NCBI RefSeq assembly: GCF_016592435.1
Contig: NZ_AP014545.1
Location: 310,001-374,000 of the forward strand
From: Amphritea japonica ATCC BAA-1530
Lineage (GTDB): Bacteria > Pseudomonadota > Gammaproteobacteria > Pseudomonadales > Balneatricaceae
Length of the DNA: 64,000 bases
Direction: 5' to 3'
In this document: positions 60,798 through 64,000 of the stretch, piece after piece
How positions within the stretch are numbered: position 1 is the stretch's first letter
Layout of the letters: every line of letters starts with the position of its first letter
Notes under the pieces: model-generated
The model's database searches: none
Seen by the model: the letters and a program-made list of their open reading frames with translations, nothing else
What the model was told of the DNA's origin: nothing
Translations under genes and position numbers: made by a program

Positions 60798-62333
60798 ATG
60801 GACTTAAGGTCACTCGTGTCCCTATCAGCTAAATCAACGCCTGCACCACTCAATTTTCTCTGGCTACTGGCAGGGTACATACTGCTACACCTGTTTATCC
60901 GTCTGGGAATGGGTGGGACGCTGGAGTTGGATGAAGCTGAGCAGGTCATTCTGGGGCAGCAACTTGAGTTAGGGTATAACACTCAACCACCACTATATAC
61001 CTGGATTCAGTGGCTGTTTTTCCAGCTGCTGGGAACCGGTGTCTTTGCGCTGGCAGTGTTAAAGTCACTCCTGCTGTTCTCTATATATCTATTTACCTGG
61101 CTGATCGCCCGGCAGGTTATTCCTAATCAGCGCATGGCGCTACTGGCGAGCTTTTCCTTATGCCTGATCCCCAGCGTCGCCTGGGAGTCCGTCCGGGATC
61201 TGACCCATACGGTACTGGTTACTGCGATTGCGTCCGCTACTTTTTATACTGTGTTCAGAATCTATCAGACGCGTGCCCTTAGCGGCTATATTGCGCTGGG
61301 TATTTTGTTGGCTTGCGGTATGCTGGCGAAATATAGTTTCGGCCTGTTTGCCGCCAGCTTGCTGTTATCTGCGTTGTCCGTCAGAGAATATCGTGGTTTG
61401 ATTTTGAATCGACGCATACTGATTTCTATCAGCATCGTTATCCTGCTTTTTTTACCACATCTGCTGTGGGCTGTTGGTCATCTCGACGAGATTAAAGCTT
61501 TTATTGGTGGCCAGGTGGGAGAGGGCAGTGAGGCCAGTTACCTAAACGGAGTGCTCGCTGGTTTTTCTAGTCTGGCAAAGAATGCCGCCGAATTTCTAAT
61601 TTTGGTCTGGCTGGTACTGACACTTATTTTTCCTTCAGCCTATAAACCGTTGTCTGTCGAGAATGAATGCGTACACCGGGTGCTGATTGCGCGGTTTCTG
61701 ATTGCAGGGGGGCTAATCTGTATAGCCCTGATCCTACTGTTTGGTACGACTCAGTTTCAGAGTCGTTGGTTTCAGCCGCTACTGATTTTCTTTCCTCTCT
61801 ATATGCTCAGCAGGGTTGAGACCGTTGGCTCTCCAGTGCGACGAGAGACAATACTTCGCTCGGTGATTGTCTTTTTTATAGTGATAGTGGTGGTTCTGCG
61901 TTTTGCTCAGTTCTGGCTTGCTCCTTATGTTAAACGTAATGCTAACCGCATGCAGTATCCCTCTGCCGAGCTTGCGCAACAGTTGAAACAAGAGGGCTTT
62001 ACACAGGGGACTATCATTGGGGACAGTAATCTGACCGCCGCCAATCTTAGTTTATACTTTGATGGTGCCAGAATTCTGAGCCCGAATACTGAATTTTTTA
62101 TAGCTGACCCGAGTATGGGAAGTGGGCAGTGTCTGGTGGTCTGGAAAGCTACCCGGCATGATAATATGCCGTTGCCGCAGGTTAATTACCTTAAGCGTTT
62201 GGGAATTGATGCACAGAGTAAGCCCTATCGCTATATTACAGCCCCCTATCGTTATGCCGACAGTGGCGAGCATCGTCTAGGGTATGTCTTATTTGTTTCA
62301 GAAAAACAATGTTCTGGTTCCGACGCTAAATAA
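60798..62333 (+). CDS. GT39-family membrane glycosyltransferase (ArnT/PMT-like)
   Basis: Up to 511 residues; ATG at 60798, or a GTG at 60816 with AAGG six bases upstream. Roughly ten to twelve membrane helices follow a first periplasmic loop carrying the acidic pair LELDEAEQ (about 47-53) and the QPPLYTWIQW motif, the hallmark of the GT39/ArnT catalytic loop. Such enzymes use an undecaprenyl- or polyprenyl-linked sugar on the periplasmic face to modify lipid A, protein or glycan. The acceptor is unknown. It is convergent with the Slam-like gene with only 20 bp between stops and no terminator. Confidence 0.87.
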   Translation: MDLRSLVSLSAKSTPAPLNFLWLLAGYILLHLFIRLGMGGTLELDEAEQVILGQQLELGYNTQPPLYTWIQWLFFQLLGTGVFALAVLKSLLLFSIYLFTWLIARQVIPNQRMALLASFSLCLIPSVAWESVRDLTHTVLVTAIASATFYTVFRIYQTRALSGYIALGILLACGMLAKYSFGLFAASLLLSALSVREYRGLILNRRILISISIVILLFLPHLLWAVGHLDEIKAFIGGQVGEGSEASYLNGVLAGFSSLAKNAAEFLILVWLVLTLIFPSAYKPLSVENECVHRVLIARFLIAGGLICIALILLFGTTQFQSRWFQPLLIFFPLYMLSRVETVGSPVRRETILRSVIVFFIVIVVVLRFAQFWLAPYVKRNANRMQYPSAELAQQLKQEGFTQGTIIGDSNLTAANLSLYFDGARILSPNTEFFIADPSMGSGQCLVVWKATRHDNMPLPQVNYLKRLGIDAQSKPYRYITAPYRYADSGEHRLGYVLFVSEKQCSGSDAK

Positions 62334-62353: not shown

Positions 62354-63604
62354 TTACTTAAAAGAGCGTAGTTCAACGGTGAAGACGATTTTGTCGTAGG
62401 TGTAGTAATCTATAGAAGATTCTACCTGCTCATATGAAATGCCTATAATTGGTGTTAATCCCTGCCAGTCTGTCTCCCGGTTAAAAAGGTTTATATGCCA
62501 GGTGCTCTTGTTATCCTGCCGTGTTATACCGAAAAAAGGATCAGAGCCTTTATAGTCTGCCCATGCTAACTTGCCTCCAAAATCAATACTCCATGAATTG
62601 ATAGGGACCTCAACTGCGGCAGAAAATGTAGTAGAAATATATGAGTAAGGGTTCTCTCGGGCTCTGGAATCGGTGACGGTCAAGCCTCCCAGGGCTCGCG
62701 AATTCCGACCGATAGGAACTATTATATTGGCTGCAACGGAATGTTGCAGAGCATCCAGATGATCTGCGTTCTCTATATCTAACTGACCGATAGAGTATTC
62801 AATAATTTGGTTGAACTGATCAGTGATTCTGGGGCTGTATTTTATCCCCGCATAGGAATAATCATATTTTAGGGATTCTGTATCCCAACTGTTTTCCATT
62901 CCCAGGGTATATTGAATATTCCGATGATTTTCAGGGATATAACGTATCCCGGTATCTAAGGTATAGCTATCCAGAGTGTTTTGTTCGAAGTCTCGGACGG
63001 AGAGCGCGACGTAAGCCTGAGTAAGAAAATTATCAGTGAGAGGGGCTCCGGCCATTAGTTTGTAGTTTAATCCTTGAGAAACTCGCTTTTCAGGGGGGGG
63101 AGCTACCGTCAGCTTATGCCCGAGAATAGTGACCTCTTCTTTTGAGGTAAAGTTGGTTGGATTGTTGTCGCTGACCAAGGCCAGAGAAAAGTCTACAAAC
63201 CCCAGCGCCTTATCGATTTCGCGTAAATACAGATATATTTTTTGCTTCACTGGCCAGGGAAGACCACCTGAGAGGAGTACCGCGTTAAATTCTTGTTTAG
63301 CCTGTGAGAACTCTCCCATCAGAAAGAGTGCTCTTGCAAGTTCCAGTTGCACACGAGGGCTGGACTCTTTTTTTAGAAATTCTCTAAAGATAGCTACAGC
63401 CAAAGGAAAATTCCTCTGTTGCAGAGCGATGCCTCCCATAGTAAACAAAGATTGAAGCTTACGTTCTATGTGAACAACTTCAATCTCTGCAGGTCTATCA
63501 TTACTGCCTGTTTTATTGTCTGCATCCGCATAGCTAAACAATGAGGCAGATGTGGAAAAAACCAGGCAGATTAATTGCTTGAAAGTCAATTTATCGTTTA
63601 GCAC
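62354..63604 (-). CDS. Slam-like outer-membrane protein (type XI secretion translocon, DUF560)
   Basis: About 416 residues. A signal peptide (LICLVFSTSASLFSYA) is followed by TPR-like helices (about 50-130; QQRNFPLAVAIFREFL, ELARALFLMGEFSQAKQEF) and then by a C-terminal region of about 270 residues of alternating strands with aromatic belts, ending VFTVELRSFK, as expected of the 14-strand Slam barrel. Slam proteins move TbpB/hemophilin-like cargo across the outer membrane. The gene overlaps the 3' end of just such a cargo gene. The start is uncertain: GTG 63604 gives a basic n-region, TTG 63589 a compact signal peptide, TTG 63628 a 13-residue longer reading. No clear ribosome site, so coupling to the cargo gene is likely. 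Confidence 0.82.
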   Translation of the reverse strand: MLNDKLTFKQLICLVFSTSASLFSYADADNKTGSNDRPAEIEVVHIERKLQSLFTMGGIALQQRNFPLAVAIFREFLKKESSPRVQLELARALFLMGEFSQAKQEFNAVLLSGGLPWPVKQKIYLYLREIDKALGFVDFSLALVSDNNPTNFTSKEEVTILGHKLTVAPPPEKRVSQGLNYKLMAGAPLTDNFLTQAYVALSVRDFEQNTLDSYTLDTGIRYIPENHRNIQYTLGMENSWDTESLKYDYSYAGIKYSPRITDQFNQIIEYSIGQLDIENADHLDALQHSVAANIIVPIGRNSRALGGLTVTDSRARENPYSYISTTFSAAVEVPINSWSIDFGGKLAWADYKGSDPFFGITRQDNKSTWHINLFNRETDWQGLTPIIGISYEQVESSIDYYTYDKIVFTVELRSFK

Positions 63605-64000
63605 CAAAAGCGCCGATATAGCTTTCAACGCCAGTACCTGTCAGGGAGAACGTACCGCCAGCTTCTTCTGCGGATGGACCGTAAAAGTGGCCATCAGCTG
63701 TACCATTAATGCCGGCTCCGGTCACGGCACCTGAAAAGTTATTGGATCCCGCAACATAGGTCAGAGTGCCGGTTAGATTAAGGTCCGCATTAATGCCTGT
63801 GGTTGCATCATCCAGGTTAACTGTATTGTTGTTTGAGGTAGTAAAACTGAGGCTTCGGGTAGTAAAATCAGCTCCAATTGACGTCGCACCGGCAACGAAA
63901 AATGCCGTGCCTGCTGCATCAATATGTATACCCGTTGTCATGCCTGTAAATGTTGCTGTTCCGGTTGTGGGCACAGCGCTGCCATCGGTACGGGAACCTA
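63591..64000 (-). CDS. TbpB-type beta-barrel protein, probable Slam cargo (C-terminal part; gene runs off the window)
   Basis: The frame is open from the right edge to the stop at 63591 (about 136 codons); the N-terminus lies outside. The visible part is a repeat-like, Gly/Thr-rich eight-strand barrel with the family marks IGADFTTRSLSFTT, TLTYVAGSNNFSGAVTG and the closing pattern GHFYGPSAEEAGGTFSL ... GAFGAKR, as in the TbpB barrel domain, hemophilin and related lipoproteins. These bind transferrin, haem or other host or environmental ligands. Whether this one is a lipoprotein or freely secreted depends on the unseen N-terminus. Overlap with the Slam-like gene places both in one transcript. 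Confidence 0.85.
   Translation of the reverse strand, partial: GSRTDGSAVPTTGTATFTGMTTGIHIDAAGTAFFVAGATSIGADFTTRSLSFTTSNNNTVNLDDATTGINADLNLTGTLTYVAGSNNFSGAVTGAGINGTADGHFYGPSAEEAGGTFSLTGTGVESYIGAFGAKR

Follow-up and report, generated by a model that had tools for sequence, protein, structure and literature searches.

A Slam-like translocon gene adjoining a TbpB-barrel lipoprotein gene in Amphritea japonica: a probable type XI pair with no TonB receptor gene nearby

Introduction

In type XI secretion systems (T11SS), Slam translocons with a DUF560 barrel occur beside genes for cargo with a TbpB-type barrel; 851 such DUF560–TbpB_B_D pairs are listed in PMC8406197, where mostly lipidated two-barrel cargo goes with one DUF560 subcluster and soluble single-barrel cargo with another. 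In the marine cluster 3 Slam loci of Rhodobacteraceae, as described in PMC12282271, the cargo is a predicted lipoprotein of 282-375 amino acids (aa) with a C-terminal barrel, and TonB receptors are rare. According to PMC5449769, a TonB receptor was also present in 120 of 185 lipoprotein-containing Slam clusters, so that the lack of one is a minority state but not a new one. Where the ligand is haem, HphA ligates it with two His and hemophilin with one (PMC8560813). Here we describe a pair of this general kind at the end of a 64,000-nucleotide (nt) stretch, the window, of Amphritea japonica ATCC BAA-1530 (NZ_AP014545.1, positions 310,001 to 374,000; G000:C1:310001-374000 of a single-contig genome of 3.83 Mb). 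The locus very probably encodes a type XI pair whose cargo is a surface lipoprotein. The fuller statement, that the cargo of this Slam pair acts as a TonB-independent surface binder, is moderately probable when taken as a whole.

The translocon and cargo genes

The following features were assigned (window coordinates):
62354..63604, minus strand: Slam-like outer-membrane translocon gene, 416 aa from the GTG start at 63604
62369..63190, minus strand: SlipAM (formerly DUF560) barrel domain, PF04575 match G000:C1:372369-373190
63203..63493, minus strand: N-terminal helices of the Slam-like protein, of tetratricopeptide repeat (TPR) type, model helices 19-115, with TPR_19 and TPR_Slam below cut-off
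63591..64000, minus strand: predicted cargo surface lipoprotein gene, 3' part; full gene G000:C1:373591-374493, 300 aa
63594..63974, minus strand: eight-strand TbpB_B_D barrel at the cargo C-terminus, presumably the Slam-targeting domain

The Slam product matches Pfam SlipAM (PF04575) with 50 bits against a cut-off of 22 (3.9e-13; the scan used the longer frame 62354-63628). Besides the GTG, a TTG at 63607 or at 63589 could also serve as start. In the AlphaFold model (predicted local distance difference test score, pLDDT, 90.3; predicted template modelling score 0.82), five TPR-type helices are followed by 14 long and two short strands. Slam barrels have 14 strands.

The cargo gene is directly upstream of the Slam gene, on the same strand. 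Its stop codon (63591-63593) gives an overlap of 14 nt with a Slam gene starting at the GTG, while the two genes are 1 nt apart with the TTG at 63589. The frame truncated by the window holds FYGPSAEEAGGTF...GAFGAKR; read on beyond the window, on the same contig, it begins with an ATG at the equivalent of window position 64493. The N-terminus reads MSNSLKATILCCGITLLVSGC followed by GGGGGGSS, that is, by eye, a signal peptide with the lipobox LVSGC and then a glycine linker. Among 24 cargo relatives, the lipid Cys is the only Cys. The barrel matches TbpB_B_D (PF01298) with 42.8 bits (9.3e-11; cut-off 26) and is the sole PF01298 match in the whole window genome. The structure model of a cargo orthologue (pLDDT 94.7) resembles single TbpB lobes, HpuA and hemophilin.

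A preliminary description, made from the letters of the window, had proposed a Slam translocon overlapping a TbpB-barrel cargo gene. Both genes lie where it placed them, and family models, structure models, lipobox, recurrence and co-divergence (see below) bear the proposal out; the DUF560/SlipAM match of the 62354-63604 product, the TbpB_B_D match of the cargo and an export signal beyond position 64000 are all found.

Recurrence and co-divergence of the pair

In 95 genomes (order and closer), PF01298 matches occur in 13 genomes (over cut-off in 12) and SlipAM matches in 33 (over cut-off in 30). Fourteen loci hold the 16 PF01298 matches, and each was read with its flanks. A Slam-like open reading frame (ORF) is the next gene in 13 of these loci and lies 5.5 kb off in the other (L032). 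Ten of the 13 adjacent ORFs are PF04575 matches; three (L030, L031 and L033) were recognized only through BLAST to a second Slam of the window genome or through a home-made Slam hidden Markov model (HMM).

A wider profile search of genome contigs, with a six-member cargo alignment and a single peptide pattern, led to 54 loci in Neptunomonas, Thiobacillus, Hydrogenophilales, a metagenome-assembled genome (MAG) of Desulfuromonadaceae, many Rhodobacteraceae and more distant taxa. The order cargo then Slam recurs in other Amphritea, in Neptunomonas, in Thiobacillus and in Rhodobacteraceae. With the window-genome locus (L002) added to the 54, the cargo match has an E-value below 1e-20 in 30 loci. 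In 17 of those 30, the Slam gene comes immediately after the cargo in the same orientation (spacing -98 to +56 nt, the overlap lengths being upper bounds because ORF starts were set mechanically), and in five it is otherwise placed. For the 17 pairs, the distance matrices of cargo and Slam correlate with r 0.89, a value reached by none of 5000 permutations.

Three other explanations were dropped: a chance match, because the SlipAM and PF01298 matches are both well over cut-off; a soluble hemophore, because the cargo has a lipobox; and a periplasmic lipoprotein beside an unrelated porin, because the pairing recurs.

Two of the loci (L077:7806-9966 and L079:7611-9604) contain two tandem cargo genes each, and the Slam frame of L079 is broken into two ORFs (267 and 150 aa). 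Cargo relatives with 32-34% identity are present on four plasmid records of 118 kb to 3.7 Mb from Sinorhizobium, Salipiger and Alloyangia (CP090106.1, NZ_CP014600.1, NZ_CP154653.1 and NZ_CP022195.1), where they are annotated as transferrin-binding protein-like solute binding protein.

TonB receptors near the pair and its relatives

The window genome encodes four TonB receptors, the nearest about 36 kb from the pair; the absence of an adjoining receptor gene, remarked upon in the preliminary description, stands. The same text spoke of a free-living marine background, which holds only loosely: Amphritea species have been obtained from marine sediment, whale-carcass sediment and a fishpond, and also from deep-sea mussels (PMC9365125).

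With a small HMM built from those four receptors, receptor-like ORFs were found in 2 of the 54 loci (L101 and L107). As a control, this HMM recovers the receptors of L026, L027 and L034, in agreement with Pfam. It detects no TonB receptor in the 17 closest loci (L064-L080), two of which, L072 and L074, are short contigs of some 6 kb. In a Pfam scan of 80 of the 110 neighbour ORFs from 14 loci, PF00593 is not among the 25 of 120 families listed; because families are ranked by members, at most one neighbour ORF matches PF00593 at 1e-5. At the level of whole genomes, PF00593 is found in 13 of 15 searched (the L065 genome was left out) and is missing from those of L077 and L078. The TonB plug domain is missing from the same two among 18 genomes, a Paracoccaceae MAG (L077) and Silicimonas algicola (L078). 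The L077 genome, without TonB receptor, does carry an adjacent Slam.

The three control loci belong to other genera of the family or order and combine a TbpB-barrel cargo, a SlipAM match of 126-192 bits and a TonB receptor. They illustrate how a TonB-linked locus is built in this order; the window locus does not fit that pattern. Their receptors have 1023-1169 aa; L026 has in addition a sigma factor and a FecR regulator, and L034 a haem oxygenase. By eye, their TbpB-barrel proteins are without the lipobox plus glycine linker.

Weighing the alternatives

Several observations weigh against a TonB-independent Slam pair. The four TonB receptors could serve the cargo from elsewhere in the genome, and TonB-linked Slam loci (L026, L027 and L034) do exist in the same order. 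The two receptor-free genomes are not clean cases: that of S. algicola because it has no PF04575 match, and that of L077 because it is a MAG. A full-length Slam ORF is missing from the fetched stretch in 8 of the 30 cargo loci, and the co-divergence of the partners partly reflects the shared descent of their hosts. On the side of the cargo, the score with NCBIfam NF041636, "Slam-dependent surface lipoprotein," is 38.8 bits for a cut-off of 80; as an equivalog model it covers less than the functional class, and 23 of 24 cargo relatives match it at 0.001 or better. On the side of the translocon, the N-terminus stays below the cut-offs of TPR_Slam (20.9 bits vs. 35.2) and of TPR_19 (24.4 vs. 25), and the Foldseek matches of the model are headed by the TPR-barrel polysaccharide secretins BcsC, 4y25 and PelBC.

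These last two points would suit an exporter of another sort, a polysaccharide secretin-like TPR-barrel protein, with the lipoprotein facing the periplasm and the adjacency incidental. The entry 4y25, presumably PgaA, is described as "polysaccharide outer membrane secretin," and no Slam entry is among the 50 best Foldseek matches listed, a list that says nothing against Slam membership of the protein. Against it stand the SlipAM score well over cut-off, the tight and recurring adjacency with TbpB-barrel lipoproteins and the co-divergence. No polysaccharide synthase is present among ten scanned neighbours, although a PMT_2-type glycosyltransferase gene converges on the pair. We consider this alternative very improbable.

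If the pair is accepted, its cargo could still be a haem or metal scavenger like hemophilin, HpuA or TbpB, the TonB receptor being encoded elsewhere. The distance to the nearest receptor speaks against it, and with the NCBIfam models only a copper receptor is over cut-off among the four, none being over a haem cut-off. HemS and the PF01126 haem oxygenase are absent from the genome, in a search that did not extend to other haem-degrading families or to haem transporters. The window cargo has two His; among the 24 relatives, no column has His in at least 12, and ten have no His at all, whereas haem binding in HphA and hemophilin is by His, as noted above. A Fur-box-like pattern occurs twice in 18 kb, a chance-level count (0.9 expected), and neither site is by the cargo. 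TonB-linked, His-bound haem uptake is the less likely role of the pair, and the scavenger as a whole appears unlikely.

The acidity of the cargo suggests another possibility, a shield that binds cationic peptides. The isoelectric point of the mature cargo is 4.09 (range over 25 computed proteins, 4.05 to 5.34), and in LbpB an anionic domain traps cationic peptides (PMC11022072). The cargo model is one compact lobe without a long insertion of the LbpB anionic-domain kind. Acidic proteins are common among marine bacteria. A shielding role is, in our estimate, rather improbable, and more so than scavenging.

For the favoured TonB-independent pair, we infer translocation by this Slam, surface exposure and a binding role along the following lines. 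The cargo would be exported by Sec, lipidated at Cys21 (counted from the ATG) and then delivered to the outer membrane. The adjacent Slam, with its TPR domain in the periplasm and its 14-strand barrel in the membrane, would recognize the C-terminal TbpB-type barrel of the cargo and move the protein to the cell surface, where the lipid and the glycine linker would hold it. There, its most likely role would be TonB-independent binding at the surface through a variable N-terminal handle, rather than that of a co-receptor for a haem or metal importer.

A second Slam and FecR-domain proteins

A further Slam is encoded elsewhere in the window genome:
G000:C1:1396615-1399127 (L021:9154-12131): second Slam with FecR-domain protein

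The SlipAM match of this Slam (G000:C1:1396615-1397448) scores 44 bits. Eight bases after it begins the gene for a protein of 555 aa that carries a FecR domain (54.4 bits against a cut-off of 24) and, by eye, a signal-like start with no evident lipobox. There are 40 SlipAM matches in the 95 genomes (the Slam-like ORF of G063 is outside this count). A match to that FecR protein lies within 1 kb in 19 of them and a PF01298 match within 2.2 kb in 10; the remaining 11 lack both, and the two never occur together. In a tree of 32 Slam sequences (L031 and L033 left out), 15 TbpB-paired sequences stand apart from 17 FecR-paired ones with a support of 0.96. The FecR-adjacent Slams hint at a second cargo class.

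A region with a WGxW motif is found at the C-terminal end of 22 FecR proteins of 520 to 2274 aa, some of which (L153, L155-L157) do not adjoin the Slam but are separated from it by about 2 kb. The WGxW motif is absent from the short FecR proteins adjoining Slams in G075 (283 aa) and G021 (292 aa). The FecR protein of L030 (genome G063) passes PF01298 with 28.7 bits (cut-off 26) and has no WGxW. A first hhalign comparison between 13 FecR-protein C-termini and the cargo family gave a probability of 0.3%. A relaxed one, with 22 FecR proteins (L030 left out), aligned them co-linearly from end to end with a probability of only 6%, which is not significant; its score was 23.5, against a mean of 11.7 over 60 column-shuffled templates (one at 26.3) and 12.6 for the reversed template. 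Homology of the FecR-protein C-terminal region to the cargo barrel is suggested by these alignments, not shown.

One could propose, as a tentative view that we rate a little below an even chance, that environmental bacteria use type XI secretion as a general route of surface display, with separate Slam branches for each cargo class. The window pair would fall in a TonB-independent branch of lipidated single-lobe binders; the sister branch, in the same genome, would carry FecR-domain proteins, and in many of these the WGxW region at the C-terminus would be a highly divergent version of the same targeting barrel. A literature search for FecR with DUF560 or T11SS was empty and we did not find this cargo class in print; FecR co-occurs with "surface lipoprotein assembly" in one publication, as far as its indexed text goes.

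Other arrangements were seen in single loci. In L154, a single ORF (L154:6269-8314, plus strand) looks like a fusion of FecR and Slam: it combines a FecR domain with TPR repeats and is matched by the home-made Slam HMM (4.5e-41). After it comes another FecR protein (L154:8308-10047, plus strand), which has a WGYW region at its end. The FecR protein with its own PF01298 barrel in L030 (L030:7111-8466, minus strand) precedes a protein of 1585 aa (L030:2352-7109, minus strand) that matches nothing in Pfam and, judged by eye, has a lipobox-like start. In L024, a 687-aa protein (L024:5358-7421, plus strand), possibly an enzyme cargo, has a lipase-like GHSLGGG motif (Lipase_3 18.3 bits, cut-off 22) and a C-terminal TbpB_B_D match of 40.9 bits; its gene overlaps a Slam (L024:4006-5361), and a TonB-receptor-like ORF is at L024:1261-3240.

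Neighbours of the pair

The ten scanned products near the pair include an aminotransferase, three cytochrome c-type proteins, a TPR protein, an SNF symporter, an ELFV dehydrogenase and a pyruvate-ferredoxin-oxidoreductase-type enzyme; two have no match, and no TonB receptor or haem-uptake protein is among the ten. The converging PMT_2-type glycosyltransferase gene (window 60798-62333, plus strand) scores 62.5 bits (cut-off 26.1). At its place A. atlantica has a lyase gene; the two genomes share the aminotransferase that flanks the pair on the opposite side. A promoter scan gave weak, barely informative sites.

Comparison with known systems

A compact lipidated pair without neighbouring TonB receptor, in culturable marine bacteria, would open a view on the type XI route apart from host iron piracy. 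The same pair would let one ask which part of the cargo barrel suffices for recognition, and the FecR-linked branch, if confirmed, would be an added cargo class.

The window pair resembles Slam1–TbpB and Slam2–HpuA of Neisseria in that a SlipAM barrel with N-terminal TPR-type helices adjoins a lipidated protein with a C-terminal eight-strand TbpB barrel (PMC5449769, PMC8406197). It differs from them in the length of the Slam (about 416 aa), its weak Slam-TPR match, a cargo of one lobe only and the lack of a TonB receptor gene nearby. Neisseria Slam proteins are longer than about 416 aa. TbpB and LbpB have two handle-barrel lobes, whereas the window cargo has a single one (one PF01298 match, and the model). 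Unlike the hemophilins (HphA/HrpC) with their Slam (PMC8560813, PMC8406197), the window cargo has a lipobox and a glycine linker but no conserved His, and the cluster has neither receptor nor haem oxygenase gene.

In marine cluster 3 T11SS loci (Rhodobacteraceae/Roseobacteriaceae), too, the predicted cargo encoded with the Slam is a lipoprotein whose C-terminus forms an eight-strand barrel, and the cargo relatives found here, with Silicimonas, Salipiger, Ruegeria and Shimia among them, overlap with the set described in PMC12282271. The present pair occurs in Amphritea and in other Gamma- and Betaproteobacteria, and none of the ten scanned neighbours in the window genome matched the DUF1194, thymidylate synthase or glyoxalase models. 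A literature search for T11SS with Amphritea found no paper, and the genus is not named in the main text of PMC5449769. The kind of pair is already known, and the Amphritea pair adds to it.
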